DNA of 33,424 bases from positions 1 through 33,424 of the forward strand of contig JANQKX010000135.1 in assembly GCA_028280915.1 (NCBI GenBank), given 5' to 3'. Positions within the stretch are counted from its first letter, which is position 1. Each line of letters starts with the position of its first letter. Shown in pieces: positions 3,898 to 33,020 of this stretch. Below the pieces are notes generated by a model. The model was not told the DNA's origin and ran no database searches. It worked only from the letters and a program-made list of their open reading frames with translations. Position numbers and translations under genes: made by a program. Source of the stretch: Kiloniellaceae bacterium (GTDB taxonomy: Bacteria; Pseudomonadota; Alphaproteobacteria; Kiloniellales; Kiloniellaceae).

Positions 3898-4647
3898 TTA
3901 CGAAAAATAGCGCCCGGACCAAAAGGGCTGAACCGGGGCGGCTGTCCGCAGGTTGGTCATGAAGCTTTCCAGCTTTTGCTTGGAGAGACCGCCTTCATCG
4001 CGTACCCCGTTGCACAGGTCCACGCCAAAGGGATTGACCCGGCGCACCGCCTCCACAATGTTGCCGGGATTGAGCCCGCCGGCCAGGAAGACCGGCTTGG
4101 GCGAGCGTTTGACAAATTCCGCCGAGATACGCCAGTCGTGCACCCGCCCGGTGCCGCCCAACTCGGCCACCGTCATGGAGGGGCGACCCGAATCCAGCAG
4201 AAAGGCGTGCACGTGCGGGGCATAAAGGGGGATCAGGTCCAGGGCATCCATGCCTTCCACGTGGATCACCTGCACCCGGCGCACCCCCTCGGGCAGCAGG
4301 CGCTTCAGGTCTTCGTGTTCCCGGGGGTCGATGTGGCGCACGATCTGCACCGTCGAGGTGCCGCAATGGCGCACGTGATCGGCGATATCCTGGGCCCGGC
4401 TGCGCTGGGTCAGCAAAAAGGTGGCAATGGGCGGCGGTACGATCTCGGCGATGTCCCTGGCCACATCGTCGTCGATCACCCCGGGGCCCGAGGGCATGTC
4501 CGCGACCAGCCCGAGCGCATCGGCGCCCAGGGCAATGGCCAGTTCGGCCTCCTCAAGCGAGGAAATGCAGCAGATCTTAATTCTTGGAAACAACGAATCC
4601 TCCACCCCCATGCCACTAAATCTTGCGCGCCAAGACTCGCCTGTCAA
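3898..4647 (-). CDS. Phosphoribosylanthranilate isomerase-fold (TrpF-like) protein
   Basis: 'RIKICCISSLEEAELAIALGADALGLV' (KIC motif), 'FLLDSG...GGTGRVHDW', 'LAGGLNPGNIVEAV', 'GVDLCNGVR'. An internal ATG near 4611 is a possible start. Confidence 0.8.
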   Translation of the reverse strand: MTGESWRARFSGMGVEDSLFPRIKICCISSLEEAELAIALGADALGLVADMPSGPGVIDDDVARDIAEIVPPPIATFLLTQRSRAQDIADHVRHCGTSTVQIVRHIDPREHEDLKRLLPEGVRRVQVIHVEGMDALDLIPLYAPHVHAFLLDSGRPSMTVAELGGTGRVHDWRISAEFVKRSPKPVFLAGGLNPGNIVEAVRRVNPFGVDLCNGVRDEGGLSKQKLESFMTNLRTAAPVQPFWSGRYFS

Positions 4648-18088: not shown

Positions 18089-18240
18089 TATCTAATTTTG
18101 AACTACAGGAAAATACGTTATTTTAATCGGAATTCTTCCCTTTGCTGAGAAGGAATCAAAAAGGTGACGCGCATCGTTCCTGGGAATTGCCGGAATTGCC
18201 CCCGCCATGGGGTGTGTGCCCTGTTTTGGGCCGCCGTCAC

Positions 18241-19011
18241 ATGACACTTCGCGTGGCCGGCACATGGTTTGAAAGGCGTCGGATCGACCCGGATATCACC
18301 CTGTTATGGGAGCCTCACGTTGTGCCGTTGGACAGATGCAACATCTGGCACATTCGCGGCAGGGACCGGGATCTGCTGATTGATTCAGGCATGGGCATAT
18401 GCAGCCTGCGGCAGGCCGCCGGCGATCTGTTCGGCCAGCAGACGATCGCCTTCGCGACCCATTCCCACTACGACCACACGGGTTGTTTCCACGAGTTCGA
18501 AACACGGGTTGCCCACGCCGCGGAAAGAGAGTCTTTTGTGGCCGATACCGCCAAGTCCCTGCGCGTCGACCACATCCCGGCATCCTTCCGGAGCTACCTG
18601 GACCGGGTCGGATACGGCCTCCGCTCCGAGTATCTCATCACGGCACTGCCCCATGAGGGTTTTCCGGTCGAGGCGTGGGAACAAAGGGGCGCATCGCCGA
18701 CTTGGCTGGTGGAAGAGGGCGACGTCATCGATTTGGGCGACAAGACCTTTGAAGTGCTGCATCTGCCGGGACACTCGCCCGGCAGCATCGGTCTTTGGGA
18801 TGCGCGCAGCGGCACGCTTTTTTCCGGTGACGCCATTTACGACGGGCCGCTGCTTGATGAACTGCCGGAAAGTGACGTCACCGTTTACATCGCCACCATG
18901 GAACGTCTTATGAAGCTGCCGGTCAACACCGTGCATGCCGGGCACGACAGCAGCTTCGGGCGGTCTCGGCTGGCCCGGATCGCGCGAAGCTACATCGATT
19001 CCCGGAGATGA
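18241..19011 (+). CDS. MBL-fold metallo-hydrolase
   Basis: 'THSHYDHTGCFHEF', 'LPGHSPGSIGLWDARSGTLFSGDAIYDGPLLD', 'VHAGHDSSF'. ATG 18241 preferred; ORF track begins 18142. Confidence 0.92.
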   Translation: MTLRVAGTWFERRRIDPDITLLWEPHVVPLDRCNIWHIRGRDRDLLIDSGMGICSLRQAAGDLFGQQTIAFATHSHYDHTGCFHEFETRVAHAAERESFVADTAKSLRVDHIPASFRSYLDRVGYGLRSEYLITALPHEGFPVEAWEQRGASPTWLVEEGDVIDLGDKTFEVLHLPGHSPGSIGLWDARSGTLFSGDAIYDGPLLDELPESDVTVYIATMERLMKLPVNTVHAGHDSSFGRSRLARIARSYIDSRR

Positions 19012-21217: not shown

Positions 21218-21492
21218 AGGCCGTAACGATTTATTCCAAACAGATTTCCACGTCGCCTGAGCAAGGTTTCTGACGACGACACAGCCAGATGGCAGCCGGT
21301 TACCGGCCCGGCTGTTTGCGGTTCCTGGTGCCGGCACCCCTCTCGGTTGAGGGGGGATCGGCGGCATGATGCATCGGTGGAAGACATTTTTTGTGAAATG
21401 AGATAGAATAACGCTACCAATTGTGCTCTCGGCGTGTGTTGACGCTTGATGTCGTCAATCTCAGCGCGAGAGTGTGCTTGGAGGTAGATCCG

Positions 21493-24400
21493 TTGAAAAC
21501 CGGCTTCTTCATCTCCCACCCTGTCTTTACGATCGTTCTTTCGCTCGTCTTGGTTTTGGCCGGGACCATTTCGATCTTCATGCTGCCCATCGCTAAGTAC
21601 CCGCCGGTTCTGCCGCCGACCGTCGAGGTGCGGGCGTTCTACCCCGGCGCCAGTGCCGAGGTGATCGAGGAGACGGTCACGATCTGGCTGGAGGATGCCA
21701 TCAACGGCGTTCCGGGCATGCTCTACATGTCTTCGAGAAGCAACAACGACGGCACCAGCACGATTACGGTCACTTTCGAGCTGGGTTACGACGTGGACGT
21801 GGGGGAACTCGACATACTGAACCGGGTGACCCAGGTGACCCCCCGCCTGCCCGCCGAGGTGCAGCGCATGGGGGTTTCCGTTCGCAAGGTGCTGCAGAAC
21901 CTCGTGCTTTCCATGATGCTCTATGACGAAGAGCAGCGTTACGATACAAATTTCCTCAGCAACTACGCGCAAATCTACATGCTCGACGAGATGGCCCGGG
22001 TGCCCGGCGTGGGCGCCGTGGGATTTCGTGGACAGCGTATTTACGCCATGCGGATCTGGCTTGATCCCGATGCCCTGGCTCAGCGGCAGCTCACGGCAAG
22101 CGACGTGGTCGCGGCCATCGAAGACCAGAATCTGAGCTTGCCGGTCGGCGCGGCGGGCCTGCCGCCCACCGGCAACCAGGTGCGCTGGCAGCTCAGTGTC
22201 AACACCACCGGGCGATTGAGCTCGGTGGAGGAGTTCGGTCGAATTGTCGTCAAGGCGGGTCCGGCAAACTCCGTCGTGCGGCTTGCCGACGTGGCGGACA
22301 TCGAACTGGGTTCCAACAGCTACAGCACCCAATCCCGCTTCGAGGGCCACCCCTCGGTCGCCATCATCTTTAAACCCGTTCCCGGCGCCAACTTGGTGCA
22401 AATGGCCGATGACCTGCGGCACACGGTCGATCGCTTGCGCAAGGATTTTCCGCCCGGCCTGAAGATCGTCTATCCCTTTGATGAAACCATCTTCATCAGC
22501 GCGGCCATCAAAGAGGTCGTGCTCACCCTGATCGCCGCCATCTTCCTGGTCGGGCTGGTGATCTTCGCCTTCCTGCGGGACTGGCGCAGCACGCTCATTC
22601 CCATGATCACCATTCCGGTCTCCCTCTTGGGCACCTTCGCTCTCATGAAGGTCTTCGGTTTTTCCATCAATCTCTTGACGCTTTTTGGCCTGACCTTGGC
22701 CACCGGCCTGGTGGTGGACGACGCCATCGTGGTGGTCGAGAACATCAACCGCGTGGTCAAGGAAAAGGGCATCTCGGTCGTCAAGGCCACGGGCGAAGCC
22801 ATGGGCGAGGTTTTGGGCGCGGTCGTCGCGAGCACCTTGGCCCTTGTGGCCGTTTTTGTGCCCTGTGGCTTTTTCCCGGGCGTCACCGGCCAGCTTTACG
22901 AGCAGTTCGCCTTGACCATCGCCTGTTCGCTGGTTCTCTCGCTCTTCACCGCCCTGACCTTGGCGCCCGCCATAGCGGCCAGGTTGCTCAAAAACGCGCC
23001 GGCGAGGCAGAGCAGATTCGGCAGAGCCATTGAACGAGGCTTTGACGGAACGAACCGGGCCTATGGGCGCTTGCTTTACCGGTTGATCCCCCATCGTGTC
23101 CTTGCCGTGCTGGTCTTCTTGGCCCTGCTCGGCGCGACGGGCTACCTTTATCTGAAAACCCCGACCGCCTTTCTGCCCAATGAAGACCAAGGCTATTTTG
23201 TCATCAACGTGCGGGCCCCCACCGGCACCGCGCTGTCCGTCACCCAACAGGCCGTCGATCAAGTGACCCAAAGGATTGAGGCGCTACCGGGTGTTCTCAG
23301 CGTCATGTCCCTGACCGGTTTCAGCATGATCGCCGGCGGCGGCTCGAACTACGGCACCATATTCGCCAACCTGAAGCCCTGGGACGAACGCAGGGCGCCC
23401 GGCGAATCGGCCCTGGCTTTGATTGAGCGCCTCAACAAGGAACTGATGATGCAGCACAAGCAGTCGGGCTGGTCCATGATGGGCAAGGATCCGCCCAGCA
23501 TTCAGGGACTGAGCGCTTTTGGCGGCTTCCAAATGCAAATCAAGGTCAAGGCCGGCGGGCCGCTCAAGGAGCTTGAACGGGTTACGCAAGAGGTGGTCGC
23601 GGCCGCCAACAAGCATCCCAAGCTGCGGGCCGTTTTCTCCGACTTCAGGGCCGACAACCCGGAACTTTTCGCCGCCATCGACCGGGATCAGGCCTTGGCG
23701 CGCGGCATTCCCATGAGCCACATCTTCGAAACGCTGCAAATCTATTTGAGCTCGGTCTATGTGAATGACTTCAACGCTTTTGGGCGGGTTTATCAGGTGT
23801 TCGTCCAAGCGCGCCAGGATGCACGGGCGGACCCCATGGATATTCCCAAGCTCTATGTGCGCGCCGCCAGTGGAGAGATGGTGTCCCTGAGCAGTCTGGT
23901 GAATCTGGTGCCGAGCCGCGGATCGGCCAGCATACCTCACTATAACCTGGACCGCTCCTCGCTGGTCCAAGGCAAACCCGCGGCGGGGGTGGGCTCGACC
24001 GAGGCCATCCAAATCATGTCCAAGATCGCGGCGCAAATCCTGCCGGGCAACATGTCCTACGAGTGGACGGGCATCTCCCTGCAGGCCATCAAGGTGGGTC
24101 ACCTGACCCCGATTATTTTCGGACTGGGGCTGTTTTTTGTCTATCTCGTTTTGGCGGCCCAATACGGTAGCTTTCTACAGCCCTTGATCATCATGTTGGT
24201 GGTGCCGTTGGCGGTCTTGGGGGCCCTTTTGGCCTTGTGGTCGCGCGGGCTGCCCAGCGACATCTACGCCCAAGTCGGCTTCGTCATGCTCATCGGACTG
24301 TCGACCAAGAACGCCATTTTGATCGTCGAGGTGGCCAATCAGCTGCGGGCTCGTGGCGGCGCGCTGGTTCCGGCGACCATCCAAGCCGCTCAGATGCGGC

Positions 24401-24645
24401 TCAGGCCCATCCTCATGACCTCGTCCGCCTTTGCGATCGGTATCTTTCCCATGGTGATTGCCGTTGGCGCCGGTGCCGCCAGTCGCCAATCGATCGGCAC
24501 CACCGTGTTTGGCGGGCTCGTGGTTTCCACCGTCCTGAGCCTGATCCTGACGCCCGTTCTTTATGTGGCCATCGAAAAGCTCTGCGGGGATCGTTTTGCA
24601 TCGGCAAGGGATCAGGCTGGCGAGAATGAATTGGGGGTCCGATGA
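21493..24645 (+). CDS. RND (HAE1-type) efflux transporter permease subunit
   Basis: 'ISHPVFTIVLSLVLVLAGTISIFMLPIAKYPPVLPPTVEVRAFYPGASAEVIEETV', 'LVVDDAIVVVENINRV', 'IGLSTKNAILIVEVANQLR'. TTG 21493 with 'ggaggt' RBS preferred over the 21421 start. Confidence 0.95.
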   Translation: MKTGFFISHPVFTIVLSLVLVLAGTISIFMLPIAKYPPVLPPTVEVRAFYPGASAEVIEETVTIWLEDAINGVPGMLYMSSRSNNDGTSTITVTFELGYDVDVGELDILNRVTQVTPRLPAEVQRMGVSVRKVLQNLVLSMMLYDEEQRYDTNFLSNYAQIYMLDEMARVPGVGAVGFRGQRIYAMRIWLDPDALAQRQLTASDVVAAIEDQNLSLPVGAAGLPPTGNQVRWQLSVNTTGRLSSVEEFGRIVVKAGPANSVVRLADVADIELGSNSYSTQSRFEGHPSVAIIFKPVPGANLVQMADDLRHTVDRLRKDFPPGLKIVYPFDETIFISAAIKEVVLTLIAAIFLVGLVIFAFLRDWRSTLIPMITIPVSLLGTFALMKVFGFSINLLTLFGLTLATGLVVDDAIVVVENINRVVKEKGISVVKATGEAMGEVLGAVVASTLALVAVFVPCGFFPGVTGQLYEQFALTIACSLVLSLFTALTLAPAIAARLLKNAPARQSRFGRAIERGFDGTNRAYGRLLYRLIPHRVLAVLVFLALLGATGYLYLKTPTAFLPNEDQGYFVINVRAPTGTALSVTQQAVDQVTQRIEALPGVLSVMSLTGFSMIAGGGSNYGTIFANLKPWDERRAPGESALALIERLNKELMMQHKQSGWSMMGKDPPSIQGLSAFGGFQMQIKVKAGGPLKELERVTQEVVAAANKHPKLRAVFSDFRADNPELFAAIDRDQALARGIPMSHIFETLQIYLSSVYVNDFNAFGRVYQVFVQARQDARADPMDIPKLYVRAASGEMVSLSSLVNLVPSRGSASIPHYNLDRSSLVQGKPAAGVGSTEAIQIMSKIAAQILPGNMSYEWTGISLQAIKVGHLTPIIFGLGLFFVYLVLAAQYGSFLQPLIIMLVVPLAVLGALLALWSRGLPSDIYAQVGFVMLIGLSTKNAILIVEVANQLRARGGALVPATIQAAQMRLRPILMTSSAFAIGIFPMVIAVGAGAASRQSIGTTVFGGLVVSTVLSLILTPVLYVAIEKLCGDRFASARDQAGENELGVR

Positions 24646-25751
24646 TGAACAACAGCCGTCATGTGAGAACAGCGGTGCTGGCCATGCTCGCCGTGATCAG
24701 CCTTCACGGCAGTGCCGCGGCGCAGACCGAAAAGGCCGCCCCGAGGGTCGTGATCGCGCCGGTTACGGAAAAATCCCTACCCCTGGAGCTCGACTACATC
24801 GGCAATATTCGGCCCGTGCAATCCGCGGAAATCAAAGCGCGCGTGATGGGTCATATCATGAGCTACCACTTTCGCGAAGGCGAGGATGTGGAAAAGGACC
24901 AACTGCTTTTTACCATCGACCAACGCCCCTACGAGGCAAAGCTGAACACGGCAAAAGCAAGCTTGAAACAGCACCAGGCGGAACTTGAGTTTGCGAAAGA
25001 GGAAGTCGCCCGCTATTCCAAGCTGGTCGACAAGGGCTTCGTGGCGCGGGAAACATATGATCTCTACCGCCGGGATGTGGCCGTTAAGGAGTCCCTGGTG
25101 CGTTCGGACGAAGCGACGATCCGGCGCGCCGAGCTTGATATGGAATACAGCGCGGTCAAGGCGCCTTTTGCCGGGCGCGCCGGACGGCGGCTTGTGGATC
25201 CGGGAAACTTCGTGATGGCCGGGGGCAGCGATGCCGACACGATCTTGGTGGTGATCAATCAGATCGATCCCATCAAGGTGGAGTTTGCGGTGCCGCAGCC
25301 TGACTTGCAGCCGATCCGCAAGGCCCACGGGGCCACGCCTCTCGCTCTCCAGGTCGCCCTCGGCGGTGACGGGGAAACCACTCATGACGGAACGCTCTGG
25401 CTCATCGACAACCAGATTGATACCGGGACCGGCATGATCCTGCTTCACGGCATGGTCGACAACCCGGATCACACCCTTTGGCCCGGACAACTGGTCAATG
25501 TGCGGGTCAAGGTCGGAACCGCGTCCAAGACGCTGAGTGTTCCCAGCGCGGCGGTCTTTCGGGGCCAGCAGGGCCCCTACGTCTTCACGGTCGGGCCGGA
25601 CTCAAAACTAGAAAAACAGCTGGTCACCTTGGGCCGCACCCTTGGGCACGCCACAATCGTCACCGCCGGACTGAAGGCGGGACAACACGTGGTCGTCGAA
25701 GGATCGCCCGGACTTCAATCCGGCATGGTGGTTCAGGCCGATGGCAAGTAG
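24642..25751 (+). CDS. RND efflux periplasmic adaptor subunit (membrane fusion protein)
   Basis: Signal peptide; 'LDYIGNIRPVQSAEIKARVMGHIMSYHFREGEDVEKDQLLFTIDQRPYEAKL', 'APFAGRAGRRLVDPGNFV'; overlaps the pump stop by 4 bp. Confidence 0.95.
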   Translation: MMNNSRHVRTAVLAMLAVISLHGSAAAQTEKAAPRVVIAPVTEKSLPLELDYIGNIRPVQSAEIKARVMGHIMSYHFREGEDVEKDQLLFTIDQRPYEAKLNTAKASLKQHQAELEFAKEEVARYSKLVDKGFVARETYDLYRRDVAVKESLVRSDEATIRRAELDMEYSAVKAPFAGRAGRRLVDPGNFVMAGGSDADTILVVINQIDPIKVEFAVPQPDLQPIRKAHGATPLALQVALGGDGETTHDGTLWLIDNQIDTGTGMILLHGMVDNPDHTLWPGQLVNVRVKVGTASKTLSVPSAAVFRGQQGPYVFTVGPDSKLEKQLVTLGRTLGHATIVTAGLKAGQHVVVEGSPGLQSGMVVQADGK

Positions 25752-25896: not shown

Positions 25897-26367
25897 TTAG
25901 CTGTCCATAACCGCCTGGGCGTGTTTCGCCAGCTCGCGGCTGGATTCCGCGCTTGCCTTGTAAACCGGATCGTCCCACTTGTCGCATTCGGCCGCGCAGT
26001 CGCTGCTCGCTTTGTGAACCGCCCTGGCCAAGTGCTTGGTGGTATCTGGATGCGCGGTGCCGTGAACGGCCACGGTGTGCATTGCCGGCGTCAAGGCAAG
26101 CATGTTGGTGCAGGAATGATGGCAATCGGCCATATCCGTATTGCCCTGCGCGAGATGTTGGGACGAAAGCGCCAGGGCCGCCTGACAGGACTGTTGCGAT
26201 GCGTGGCTGGCATCGGCAAGGGCCTGGCGCTTGTCGGCGTCAATGGCGTCAGCCGACGACGAGTCTTGCGCCCGCGCGGCGCTGACGCCGAGAGCCCCTA
26301 CGGCAAGTCCAGTGGCGCCGACGACCACCGCGCGGCGGCTAAAGCTTCCATCTGCTACCTTTTCCAT
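25897..26367 (-). CDS. Tat-exported Cys/His-containing helical protein, Csp-like (copper storage protein-like)
   Basis: Tat signal 'SFSRRAVVVGATGLAVGALGVSAARA'; 'SQQSCQAALALSSQHLAQGNTDMADCHHSCTNML', 'HKASSDCAAECDKW' resembling four-helix Csp/DUF326-like Cys motifs. ORF extends to 26409. Confidence 0.65.
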   Translation of the reverse strand: MEKVADGSFSRRAVVVGATGLAVGALGVSAARAQDSSSADAIDADKRQALADASHASQQSCQAALALSSQHLAQGNTDMADCHHSCTNMLALTPAMHTVAVHGTAHPDTTKHLARAVHKASSDCAAECDKWDDPVYKASAESSRELAKHAQAVMDS

Positions 26368-26460
26368 ATCGCTCTCCCATAGATTGTATGGTTTGATCCA
26401 ATTTTCCAACAGGCCCCCGAAGATAGAAATCTACGGCCAGCCAGGCGGAAAAACCCCATC

Positions 26461-26708: not shown

Positions 26709-27281
26709 ATGGGTATGTGGAAAAGGATGTTTCGTGGCGTACTGCCGGCGGCGGTGATTGCAGCTCTTTTTGCAAGCCAGTCTTCTTTTGCGAGTCAGTC
26801 TTCGGCGGCCGGGATATGGCACATCAAATGTTTTAACGAGCAGGGGCAATCCATGGCGGTTAAGGCGCTGAGCACGGAAGGTGTCACTTTTGACGTCAAG
26901 GGGATCGTGGTCAAGGACGCCACCACCTTGGACGTGAAGGCGATCCATCCGGAAACCGATGCACTGCTCCCGGTGAAGGTCTTGCCGGCGCAAGATGGCG
27001 CTGACTTCGCGGACGTGAAGGCGATCGGCCAGTCCAACCAGATCATACCCATCAAGGCGATCACCCATACTGGCAAGACTCTCGATGTGAAGGCCTTCCA
27101 AAACATCGATACCGATCAGTACGATATCAAATGTCTGGGCAAGGACGGCAAGCGGCTCGGGCTGAAGGCGATCTCGCCGCAGGGGGAGGTTTACGACGTC
27201 AAGGGCATCAAGGATCTGGAAGACGACGACGAGCTTGAGATCGAGATCCTGGCCCACATCAAGGCCAAAAAGCCGGATTAG
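26709..27281 (+). CDS. Exported protein made of tandem short 'DVKAI' repeats
   Basis: Signal peptide 'MWKRMFRGVLPAAVIAALFASQSSFA' followed by about 10 repeats of [DPG]-[VIL]-K-[AGCV]-[ILFV]-x(6-9)-[LYFI]. Confidence 0.8.
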   Translation: MGMWKRMFRGVLPAAVIAALFASQSSFASQSSAAGIWHIKCFNEQGQSMAVKALSTEGVTFDVKGIVVKDATTLDVKAIHPETDALLPVKVLPAQDGADFADVKAIGQSNQIIPIKAITHTGKTLDVKAFQNIDTDQYDIKCLGKDGKRLGLKAISPQGEVYDVKGIKDLEDDDELEIEILAHIKAKKPD

Positions 27282-27396: not shown

Positions 27397-28224
27397 CTAA
27401 TCGAAGATATCCCGTAAGGAACGCAGCGGGGCGGCATCGAGCCGTACAACCTGGTCGCCCAAGGCAGGGAAGGCCGCGGGGTAAAGCGAACACACAAGGG
27501 GGTCGTGGCCTGGAATGACGTGGTCTTCGCTGTCGGCGAGGCCTTCGATCATCCGGTAGCTTTCTTTCGTCGCGGGCCGGGACCAACAGATGGGGAAGGT
27601 CACCCGCCGCTTCCAGTGTTCATAATAATGGGTCGCGTCCGACGCCAAGAGCAGGTTCCCGCGCTTGGTTGGCACCCGCAAGGCCTGCATGCCCATGGTG
27701 TGTCCGGGCAGGGCATGGAGAGTCAGGCCCGGTGCGATGTCGCCGTCACCGGAATAGAACACGACACGCTTTTCGAACAGGCGATGCACGAACTCTGCGA
27801 TGTCGTCTGCCGAATAAAAATGACGCTGGTCGTCATCGAGCATCCAGCGACCGGTGGTGACCTGGGCTTCCCGCTCTTGGATATGAAAACGCGCTCGGGG
27901 AAACTCCGATAGGTTGCCTGCGTGATCGTTGTGCATATGGGTGATCACCACGTCTTCCACCTTGGCGGCATCGATGCCGAGCTCCGCGAGCATCAAACGT
28001 GGCAGACGCATGGCAGAGCAGCCGCGCAGCTTGCCTTGGTGTTGATTGAAGCCCGTGTCCACGATGATCGTTCGGTTCTCATTACGCACGACCCAAATGT
28101 AATAGGCGAGCGGCATGGGGGAATCGTGGTCGTCAACGGGCTCCAGAAAGAGCTCCTGACGGGCCCGCGCCGTGCGCTCGGCATAGCGCAGGGCAAAGAC
28201 TTCGTAAGTTTCATCAGCAGCCAT
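27397..28224 (-). CDS. N-acyl homoserine lactonase-like MBL-fold hydrolase
   Basis: 'VVITHMHNDHAGNLSEFPRARFHIQERE', 'LTLHALPGHTMGMQALRV', 'LLASDATHYYEHW', 'VIPGHDPLV'. MAADETYEV start preferred over ORF start 28332. Confidence 0.88.
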   Translation of the reverse strand: MAADETYEVFALRYAERTARARQELFLEPVDDHDSPMPLAYYIWVVRNENRTIIVDTGFNQHQGKLRGCSAMRLPRLMLAELGIDAAKVEDVVITHMHNDHAGNLSEFPRARFHIQEREAQVTTGRWMLDDDQRHFYSADDIAEFVHRLFEKRVVFYSGDGDIAPGLTLHALPGHTMGMQALRVPTKRGNLLLASDATHYYEHWKRRVTFPICWSRPATKESYRMIEGLADSEDHVIPGHDPLVCSLYPAAFPALGDQVVRLDAAPLRSLRDIFD

Positions 28225-28599
28225 GATGTATCTCGCGAGAGAAAGAGAAATCCGGAAACCGATCGCCGGCAAACTCCTGCCGAATATTACCAACGCACCC
28301 TTGCTCTTGGCTAGGCCCGGGGGGCATCGCATCCATGATGGGGCAGGATTGTTGGCGGCATGATGCGGTTATTGCCGATTTGATCGGTTCAGCTCTAAGT
28401 GTATGATAGGGGATTAGGGGTCCAGGACGTCTGCGTTTGGGCTCGACAGAACTCTTGCAACGTCCAAGGCGGCAAGGACTTGCCGTTGGACAAGGATTTG
28501 CCGCTGGCCTCTGCGGCGCAAGGGGCGGTCCTGAAAACGAGTTGCAAAACACCTGTTCTAAAATCTTGAAACCCCTTATCAGACAGAGGAGAAAGCCTC

Positions 28600-28893
28600 A
28601 TGGCCACCTTCATCATACTCGCCAATTGGACAAAAGAAGGCTTTCAACAGGTCAAGGAATCGCCGGAGCGATTGGATGCCTTCAAAGCCGCTTGCCGTGA
28701 ACATGGCGCGGAGATTGTCGCCTACTATATGACGATGGGCCCCTATGACATGGTCATCATCGTCCAGGCCCCCGATGATGAAACGGTGGCCCGCCTGCTG
28801 CTCCTGGGCGGTTCCCAGGGCAAGACCCGAACCCTGACGCTCAAGGCCTTTACCGAGGATGAATATCGCAAGCTCGTATCCGCGATGGCATAG
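28600..28893 (+). CDS. GYD domain protein
   Basis: 'MATFIILANWTKEGFQQVKESPERLDAFKAACREHGAEIVAYYMTMGPYDMVIIVQAPDDETVARLLL' typical GYD family. Confidence 0.9.
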   Translation: MATFIILANWTKEGFQQVKESPERLDAFKAACREHGAEIVAYYMTMGPYDMVIIVQAPDDETVARLLLLGGSQGKTRTLTLKAFTEDEYRKLVSAMA

Positions 28894-29035: not shown

Positions 29036-29275
29036 ATGGCAAATGAAACAATCTCCAGAGAGGCCGCCACGAAAATGGTTGCGGTCGTGGAAAGAGCTTT
29101 TGGTGATTGAGATATCGATGGGTTCATGGCGGGTTTTACCGATGATGTCATCGTCCGTTTCGCAGACCAGCCGGAAATCGCCGGTAAAAAGGAGGTTCGC
29201 GAATTTCTTGAGTCGAGATTTGCGCGCCAAAAGCACCAGCTGGCTCAATGTCTTTGCGTCGAACCGCCTTCTTAA
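29036..29275 (+). pseudogene. SnoaL-like/NTF2-like protein remnant with in-frame TGA and truncated C-terminus
   Basis: MANETISREAATKMVAVVERAFGD*DIDGFMAGFTDDVIVRFADQPEIAGKKEVREFLESRFARQKHQLAQCLCVEPPS*; TGA at 29108-29110, same frame on both sides. Confidence 0.7.
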
Positions 29276-30777
29276 TCGGGAATAAAAACAAACCAAATGT
29301 AACCCACGCCGTTGTGGAAGCCTGGAGGGTCGGTGATGTCCCAGCTTGACGGGGCGGCGTAAGCACCACCACCGCCACCGCCGGCCTCCGCTTGATCGCC
29401 GCCATTGCCGCCGCCCCAGCCACCGCCGCCGCCGCCGTGACAGGAATCGCCGAACGGGGGAACCGGGCCGCCTTGACCCGCATGGAAGTTGTTGACTTCA
29501 CCGGTTGCGATCACCAAGGGGTTGCCCTGGAACCAGTAAGCGATGGCCGCGCCATCCGCCTCGCCGCCGGCCCCGCCCGGCCCACCGGCACCTTGACAAT
29601 TGGAAGTGGCTCCGTTGTCGCCACATAGTCCTGGCGCTCCGCCGCCACTACCGCCACCGGCGATGCCGCTGCCGCCCGTGCATCCGGCGATCGACGTATC
29701 CCCGACCGTACTGCCCTCTAAACAAAAGGCTCCCGGGCAAGACCCGAGCGTGCTCGAGATCGCAATGCCGCCCACGCCGCCGCCATTGCCGCCGTCGAAC
29801 CCATTCGCGGCGCCGCCGCCGCCGCCACCCGGGCCAATCAGAAGGACGCCGTCCGTGTTGAACTGATTGGCGACGTTGGCCGCCCGCAAGAGTGTGGCCG
29901 CGCCACCCCCGCCGGAATGTGTGTTGGAATGTGTTCCCGCCGAGGCCATTCCATAGGCCCAGGTGGTGGAGGCGCCATAAGTCGAATTGAGATCCGCGAT
30001 GGTGGTTCCCATCGCGGCAGATCCGCCCGCGCCGCCGCCATCGGTAAGCCCCACGTTCGCGCCGCGCGACCCCCAGGCGCCAGACGCGTGGATCATGAGT
30101 TTTGTATTATTCGACAAACTGCTGTCACATCCGGACGCGGCACTCAACAAGGTCGACATGCTGAACGCGTCGTCGCCTGCTGTCGAGGCCATCACGCACG
30201 TGGTTCGGCTCGTACTGGAATCAAAGTTACAGGTGAAGGTCGAATTGCTGCAGGAAGGGTTGACATCCGCAGGAACCGACACTGCCGCCTGGTCGATGGC
30301 TCCGAGGTTGTCTTCGACGACGACAACGGCTCGAAGGTTCGGTCCCAATTCACGATTCGGGTGCACCATGAGGCTGGCTCCCGGATTTCGCGTCGTGATC
30401 GGTCCCGCCAAGACCTCGCCATCCTCAGCCTCCAGCCAGAAATCATAGAGTTTCACATGGCCGTCGGGATCCATGGAATCGAGCGCATGGACATCCACGC
30501 GGCCCGGAAAGACCTGTTCGATCTCAAGCGCGGCCCAGGGTGACTGGTTGTTCCGGCGCAAATGCTCCAGCACGCGGGCCGCAAAGCGCCCGTGCGACCG
30601 GGTTCTGACGTACATGTGGGTGTTTGCTTCGGAGACCTGGACACGCACCTCCTGGGCAGGTTACTCGCCCTTGCTCACATCTCGGTCGGCCGTTTCAGCG
30701 GACGCTGCTCCCCAAGGGATGACCGCCCAAGACAGGAGAGCCAACACCAAAGCCAACGTGCTGACATCCCGCTTCAT
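29272..30777 (-). pseudogene. Secreted glycine-rich protein gene with in-frame TAA just after the signal peptide
   Basis: MKRDVSTLALVLALLSWAVIPWGAASAETADRDVSKGE*PAQEVRVQVSEANTHMYVRTRSHGRFAARVLEHLRR...; stop codon 30661-30663; ORF 29272..30648 continues in the same frame with extensive Gly-rich sequence. Confidence 0.7.
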
Positions 30778-31366: not shown

Positions 31367-32926
31367 TTAAGAGACCGTGAAGGCGGTCATCATTCCGGAA
31401 TCCTCGTGTTCCAGGTTGTGGCAATGGGCCATGAACGGATGTTCTTTGGACGCCGGGTGCTCGAAGCGGACCTGGATCTCCGCCGAGCCGCCCTTTGCAA
31501 TGGGGGCCACGTCTTTCCAGCCGGCCATAAAGGCTGGCGGCGCCTTGCCGTCAAGGGCCAGGATGCGAAACTGGCAGCCGTGGATGTGGACCGGATGCAG
31601 CATGCGGTCCGAGCCCTCGGAGATAAGCCATCGCAGCTCGGTGTCGATGGGGGCCGCGATGGGAACGTCTCCGATTTTGAATGGAGCCCCGTTCACCGCA
31701 TTCGCGCTCAGCCGCTGGTCGAGAGGCAGCGCCGGGCCTTCCGTGATAAGTTTGGTGACAGCCGCCACCACCTTTGGGTCGGTCTTCTTTGCCTTGTTCA
31801 TCTTCATCAGACCGGCGGATTTCAGTTGCCCCATGCCTTGGTCGTCGAGGCGCATTTCCATGACCAGGTTTTGGCTGACAGGAGGCAGGTCCGTGACCAA
31901 TGGCGGCAAGTCGACCAGCTTCTCCGGTAAGGTACCGCCGCTTTCCGCGCCGTCGGGGCGCAGGGTGATCAGATTCAGATCGGCATCGAACGGCGGCAGG
32001 TTCATGGCCAGCTGGTCCACCGGCCGGGTCAAGAGATCGAAGGGGGCGCCGTTGCGCGCGTCGACCAGAACCTCATAACGTTCGCCGCCGTAGAGCATCA
32101 ATTCCTTTAACGCCATAGGTTCGGAAAGCAGGCCGCCGTCGCCCGCCACCACATACATGGAACGACCGTCCGACAGGGCAAGCCGGTAGCTTCGGGAATT
32201 GGACCCATTCAAGAGACGCAGCCTGAGCCAGCCGCGCGCGGTGCGGGCCTCTGGATAAACCGCCCCGTTGACCAGCATGATATCGCCCACGTAGCCGGCG
32301 GTAATGTCAATCATGTTAAAGCGGTGGAAGAAAGAGCCGTCCCCATTGAAGCGACGGTCCTGCAGGATCAGCGGGATATCATCGATTCCCCAGTGCGATG
32401 GCAGACCCAAGGCCTCGGATTCTTCGTCATCGATTATGAATAACCCTGCCAGGCCCTTGATCACCAATTCGGCGGTCGTCGGATACAAATGCGGATGGAA
32501 CCAGCATGTCGCTGCCGGCTGTGCGATGTTTAGCGTGGGCTCCCAGGATTTCCCAGGGTTTATGACGTTATAGGGGCCGCCGTCCAGTTCACCGGGGATC
32601 TTAAGGCCGTGCCAATGCATGGTGATATCTTCATTGATCTCATTGGCCACCTGAAGAGTGACTCTTTCCCCGCGACGCACTCGGATTGCCGGACCGAGAA
32701 AGGGACCATTGACGCCATAGGTAGGGGGCGCGATACCCGGCAGGAATTGTTGCTGACCGGATATGGCCCGCAGCGCAATGACCCCCTTCGCGTCCGCCCT
32801 TAACTCCGGCGGGACCGGCAAGGCGGGGCGGCCGGCGGCGTGGCTCTGCCTGAACCGGGCGAGGGCGCCCGTTGCAGCGGAAGCAGCCGCGCCGAATAGA
32901 AGCTTGCGCCTGGAAATCTCGTTCAT
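31367..32926 (-). CDS. Multicopper oxidase family protein with Tat signal
   Basis: 'MNEISRRKLLFGAAASAATGALARF' Tat signal; copper motifs 'HWHGLKIPGELDGG', 'CWFHPHLYP', 'HPVHIHGCQF', 'HCHNLEHEDSGMM'. ORF extends to 33010. Confidence 0.94.
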   Translation of the reverse strand: MNEISRRKLLFGAAASAATGALARFRQSHAAGRPALPVPPELRADAKGVIALRAISGQQQFLPGIAPPTYGVNGPFLGPAIRVRRGERVTLQVANEINEDITMHWHGLKIPGELDGGPYNVINPGKSWEPTLNIAQPAATCWFHPHLYPTTAELVIKGLAGLFIIDDEESEALGLPSHWGIDDIPLILQDRRFNGDGSFFHRFNMIDITAGYVGDIMLVNGAVYPEARTARGWLRLRLLNGSNSRSYRLALSDGRSMYVVAGDGGLLSEPMALKELMLYGGERYEVLVDARNGAPFDLLTRPVDQLAMNLPPFDADLNLITLRPDGAESGGTLPEKLVDLPPLVTDLPPVSQNLVMEMRLDDQGMGQLKSAGLMKMNKAKKTDPKVVAAVTKLITEGPALPLDQRLSANAVNGAPFKIGDVPIAAPIDTELRWLISEGSDRMLHPVHIHGCQFRILALDGKAPPAFMAGWKDVAPIAKGGSAEIQVRFEHPASKEHPFMAHCHNLEHEDSGMMTAFTVS

Positions 32927-33020
32927 GGTCCGCTCCGTTATTCGCTGCGAGAAAAGTTTGCGGCTGCCTAATGTGGCATTTAAACTTCCTTGCCGCAGCA
33001 TAAAATGCACTGCAAGAAGG

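Follow-up and report, generated by a model that had tools for sequence, protein, structure and literature searches.

In beta-flowers, short antiparallel strands (8, 10 or 12, with twelve in the sixfold form) make up a shallow barrel; these proteins carry [DNEQ]XXG at the hairpin tips, include some members with lipoprotein motifs and have no Foldseek match in the PDB (PMC10584680). The beta-flower/Tubby-like barrels (clan CL0395) are the closest architecture by description to the protein analysed here, but its family, Pfam PF24307 (DUF7486), is not placed there, and profile tests failed. Another group for comparison is the Oscillatoria agardhii agglutinin (OAA) family of lectins, for which a repeat of ~66 aa is given in PMC8166773. 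DUF7486 itself is catalogued but uncharacterised: no paper naming it and no solved structure were found, and NCBIfam gave no model for the protein.

The window, i.e. the whole 33,424-nucleotide stretch of Kiloniellaceae DNA that was analysed, contains a gene of this family (Table 1). Its translation is identical to that quoted in the earlier note, and the product matches the PF24307 profile from end to end (residues 36-186 against profile positions 4-153 of 154; 105.4 bits, E 2.6e-30, gathering cut-off 27). A named family can thus be assigned where none had been recognised, although its function is uncharacterised, and the profile match does not lead to a well-characterised repeat family. By its sequence, the gene is a genuine, well-formed member, sharing with PF24307 a whole-domain match, equal length, the same twelve-unit repeat and export. 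It differs from most relatives in being single-domain, in carrying Cys in strands 1 and 9, and in representing a proteobacterial branch that is about 35-45% identical to the Bacteroidota members. As a gene it is unremarkable, its fold is of moderate interest, and family membership itself is no discovery; what the analysis adds is anatomy, namely a domain with a constant set of twelve strands, each carrying one lysine, together with family-wide export and repeated tandem duplication.

Repeat architecture, export and conservation

The motif [VIL]K[AGCV][ILFMV] has 11 exact matches in the mature part of the window protein, spaced by ~12-14 residues, whereas 20,000 shuffled controls of the same residues gave a mean of 0.36 matches and never more than 4. 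A looser measure, the self-diagonal score, stands out less (33, compared with 20 ± 4.3 in shuffles, with at least 1 of 500 shuffles reaching 39), and the repeat signal is therefore carried by the exact motif. Core lysines are present in all twelve strands (residues 40, 52, 64, 77, 90, 104, 116, 128, 141, 153, 165 and 185). The dominant period of the domain is 12, against which a five-strand (OAA-like) internal duplication was disfavoured. The tandem repeats proposed in the earlier note are thus borne out, but its list of units needs amendment at both ends: the first unit (IWHIKCFNEQGQ) was missing, and the list stopped at EIEILAH, whereas the twelfth strand of the model is AHIKA. Its proposal of export also holds, as the protein has a hydrophobic N-terminal segment at about residues 8-28 and a comparable export-type segment occurs in 78 of the 78 relatives with complete N-termini (distinct contigs); a lipobox-like cysteine, called by a simple rule, was found in 39 of these. 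A reverse-strand ORF overlapping the DUF7486 gene is without support.

Table 1. Positions of the DUF7486 gene, its parts and nearby genes in the window
Feature	Position (nt)	Strand	Remarks
Metallo-beta-lactamase-fold hydrolase	18142-19011	+	
RND pump	21421-25751		Near the DUF7486 gene
Tat-signal protein	25897-26409	-	Weakly Csp1-like, few Cys; also delimited as 25897-26367; TIGR04401 41.4 bits (cut-off 100); SRRAVVV near N-terminus
DUF7486 gene	26709-27281	+	190 aa, ATG start, exported, single-domain; open frame and PF24307 match
Signal peptide	26709-26792	+	Approximately residues 1-28 (K5 R6 ... VLPAAVIAALFA ... SFA), hydrophobic, upstream of the repeats; cleavage site assigned by eye
DUF7486 domain	26814-27266	+	Twelve predicted antiparallel strands, core [D/P/H/G]-[V/I/L]-K-[A/G/C/V]; from conservation and AlphaFold2
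Strand 1 (IWHIKCF)	26814-26834	+	W37, H38 (either H or N across the family) and K40 conserved; C41 where Ala is usual
Cys codons, strands 1 and 9	26829-26831, 27132-27134	+	Residues 41 and 142
Final segment	27207-27266	+	K168, E175 and strand 12 (A182-H183-I-K185-A); from column conservation
Metallo-beta-lactamase-fold hydrolase	27397-28332	-	Resembles AidB/AttM-type N-acyl homoserine lactonases, with scores far under their cut-offs
GYD-domain protein	28600-28893	+	Sole GYD found in the window genome
Glycine-rich protein	29272-30648	-	458 aa, long GGGG-rich region; no Pfam match at E<=0.001
Multicopper oxidase	31370-33010		Near the DUF7486 gene

Conservation was examined in an alignment of 93 domains from relatives picked at <80% mutual identity, and PF24307 was matched by all 93. 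The core Lys is kept in 94-100% of the domains in eleven of the twelve strands and in 78% in the sixth; Asp precedes it at position -2 in most strands, Ala or Gly follows at +1, and Asp/Glu-Gly occurs in most turns. Strands 1 and 12 carry His where the others mostly have Asp, Pro or Gly, and strand 9 also often has His. Outside the repeat, conservation is strongest at W37, H38, K168, E175 and strand 12, the final segment showing K168 in 90%, E175 in 96%, A182 in 97%, H183 in 98% and K185 in 96% of the domains (window numbering, equal to A1 numbering + 25, so that K143, E150, A157, H158 and K160 correspond to K168, E175, A182, H183 and K185, respectively). Cys replaces the Ala after the Lys of strands 1 and 9 in both alphaproteobacterial proteins; this pair, which is limited to a few members of the alignment, may form a disulfide across the core.

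Domain length is near-constant in the relatives (~150 aa with twelve strands). The number of units is therefore constant, in place of the variable copy number that had been considered, and variation consists in the presence of one domain or two. Two full DUF7486 domains were found in 50 of the 78 relatives and one in 25, and no other domain was recognised in these proteins. Both copies within a protein group together in the tree for five of them; as such copies are nearest kin in several proteins, repeated duplication or homogenisation of copies would account for the tandem forms.

Predicted fold and its alternative readings

AlphaFold2, using the 93-row alignment, predicted an all-beta single domain with twelve strands of 6-9 residues, turns of mostly five residues and no C-terminal helix (pLDDT 92, pTM 0.87). 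For a tandem DUF7486 protein the values were pLDDT 94 and pTM 0.89, and the relative placement of the two domains is therefore confident. The regular, beta-rich architecture anticipated in the earlier note agrees with this model, whereas the beta-solenoid or propeller-like fold expected there finds no backing: each repeat comprises a single strand and its turn, and Foldseek returned nothing at E<=0.001, either from the PDB with the single-domain and tandem models or from BFVD (viral fold library) with the single-domain model. A search of solved structures with a single DUF7486 sequence gave nothing credible, and a profile search of them gave only flagellin (E 0.0075 and weaker, covering part of the profile), which was judged to be due to chance. 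Weak Pfam matches to PepSY_2 in 57 of the 93 members (best E-values 9e-6 for a single domain and 9e-7 for a tandem protein) cover short stretches only and were taken as a common GxxxDVK-like pattern. No solved relative was found by sequence or fold. The family occurs in Bacteroidota, Planctomycetota, Verrucomicrobiota and a few Proteobacteria, all of which a single structure would cover; as a target the domain is small and apparently rigid, and its regular one-strand repeat may interest protein designers.

In the proposed model, twelve strand-plus-turn units of 12-13 residues each would form a single antiparallel meander, each hairpin being closed by a putative type I turn with a Gly bulge (xxDG). 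The turn x-x-D-G-x in mid-period, together with standard hairpin geometry, would pair V with V, K with D and A with Y/L/F across neighbouring strands, and this arrangement would therefore give one face with a Lys/Asp salt-bridge checkerboard and another with a Val/Ala/aromatic core; register and two-face layout are deduced from the residue pattern and not from coordinates. The meander is likely to close as a twelve-strand barrel. Strand 12 would pair with strand 1, because each of them has His instead of Asp, and the conserved W37, H38, K168, E175 and H183 would sit at the seam between them.

The reading of the protein with the best support is that of an exported beta domain, small and rigid, which would bind something in or outside the envelope, perhaps a glycan, a lipid or another envelope component. 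When a small beta domain is exported and shows no evident catalytic set, binding is what one assumes by default; as a counterpoint, the row of lysines may have a structural role only. A stand-alone binder, rather than an enzyme with an operon partner, would fit because the most recurrent gene family beside DUF7486 was found at no more than six loci, most of them in close relatives. The full reading, a secreted or periplasmic single-domain protein whose twelve-strand meander is closed as a barrel and serves as a stand-alone envelope ligand-binding domain, is put forward tentatively and at rather less than even confidence. The broader proposal that the family has a fold of its own, hitherto unrecognised, in which twelve strands with a one-strand repeat and a continuous Lys/Asp checkerboard close into a barrel that acts as an exported ligand-binding domain and duplicates as a rigid tandem, is possible but doubtful.

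Descriptively, DUF7486 has much in common with the beta-flowers (PF21784, PF21785 and PF21786), of which it could be an unlisted membrane- or lipid-associated branch, perhaps binding phospholipid at the envelope: twelve short antiparallel strands are likewise predicted for it, its turns are DxxG-like, lipoboxes are frequent and the PDB holds no match. Most of its turns close on a Gly that has Asp, Glu or Asn close by, but this recurs at nearly every turn and on a 12-residue period. We consider such a branch unlikely, however, since the three beta-flower families were absent from Pfam scans (E<=10) of six diverse DUF7486 members and hhalign of the DUF7486 profile with three Bflower sequences gave a probability of 0.3% (PF21785 and PF21786 being tested by hmmscan only). 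Moreover, beta-flowers repeat a hairpin whose loops differ in length (nine and four residues), whereas the DUF7486 repeat is one strand with Lys in every strand and turns that are mostly alike, and the C-terminal helix is lacking from its predicted structure. The top-ranked, though weak, structural matches were to OAA-like lectins, which are also antiparallel barrels with tandem domains. The best PDB matches of the tandem model were Burkholderia oklahomensis agglutinin (BOA) chains, with E-values from 1.5e-3 to 5e-3 and Foldseek probabilities of 0.60-0.75, and Myxococcus MBHA and Solieria SfL, members of the same family, were listed too. TM-scores of about 0.2 and an rmsd near 16 A nevertheless indicate a local resemblance at best, the ~66-aa OAA repeat contrasts with the dominant period of 12, a five-strand offset is not favoured, six diverse members showed no Pfam lectin match, and there is no sequence match to this family; a glycan-binding lectin with an OAA-like barrel is hence quite improbable.

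A purely structural or surface-coat role, in which the Lys/Asp lattice stiffens a rigid sheet with no specific ligand, would suit the dominance of the repeat itself in the conservation and the presence of the single-layer sheet protein OspA, also a regular antiparallel meander, among the weak Foldseek matches. This role has a small chance of being correct: an open single layer would expose one hydrophobic face, the non-repeat residues W37, H38, E175 and H183 are at least 95% conserved or two-valued, suggesting a site, and OspA differs from DUF7486, which has one hydrophobic face, in its repeat length and with a TM-score of at most 0.2. The genes around the domain raise the further idea of a periplasmic copper or metal response shared with the Csp-like neighbour, the RND efflux pair and the multicopper oxidase. 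The DUF7486 gene and the Csp1-like gene share a ~340-bp intergenic region, and the Cys that stand in for Ala in strands 1 and 9 of the two alphaproteobacterial proteins count in favour of this idea. The neighbour had been described as a divergent Tat-exported Csp-like protein; its divergent orientation and Tat signal stand, whereas its TIGR04401 score is far under the cut-off. Few members have the Cys pair, the best scores of the RND adaptor are with general and multidrug-type models and not with CusB, and none of these genes was found beside the domain in the proteobacterial loci L102 and L013 or is prominent among the recurrent neighbours, so a metal response is very improbable. The stand-alone envelope-binding barrel is the reading that we prefer.

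Distribution, relatives and gene neighbourhood

DUF7486 is rare outside Bacteroidota. The window genome was the only carrier among 64 genomes of its own order, 399 of the phylum sample and 386 of the class sample, and a Flavobacteriales sample contained the domain in 2 of 244 genomes, including the genome on which the sample was centred. A degenerate DNA pattern that spans three repeats in a row identified 110 stretches in genome contigs, most carrying DUF7486. The carriers belong mainly to Flavobacteriia and Saprospiraceae, with some Planctomycetota and Verrucomicrobiota, an Oceanospirillales MAG, the alphaproteobacterial MAG L102, an interrupted Lysobacterales copy and two cyanobacterial MAGs, a list that depends on the DNA pattern used and is not a census. 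Maribacter arenosus is an example of a flavobacterial carrier that can be cultured. A peptide-pattern scan of genome contigs gave no confirmed relative, and tblastn searches of plasmids and phages gave no matches.

The window protein is 54% identical to the L102 protein (BLASTP). In a tree of 63 domains these two group together and are then joined by the Oceanospirillales protein (99/95 support), inside a Bacteroidota-rich tree, for which horizontal transfer of DUF7486, in either direction, would be the natural reading. Recent transfer as judged by composition gave no clear signal, since the GC3 of the gene (0.74, with a total G+C of 56%) resembles that of its neighbours. The Csp1-like gene has a third-position G+C of 0.53, compared with 0.70-0.84 in the other measured genes, which suggests a different origin of this gene.

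A GYD gene lies downstream of DUF7486 in both the window (1.3 kb) and L102 (about 0.1 kb; 4017-4337, + strand), in each case the sole one found in the genome. The association is suggestive only and may be due to chance or unexplained. A functional link was rejected: the GYD proteins of the two genomes share little similarity (28% over 53 aa), a related gene is present in 22 of the 64 genomes of the order, and any GYD gene was found in 3 of 57 other DUF7486 genomes, being located on another contig in the one whose DUF7486 contig is known. The window also contains a long glycine-rich protein and two metallo-beta-lactamase-fold hydrolases, one of them of lactonase-like appearance (Table 1).
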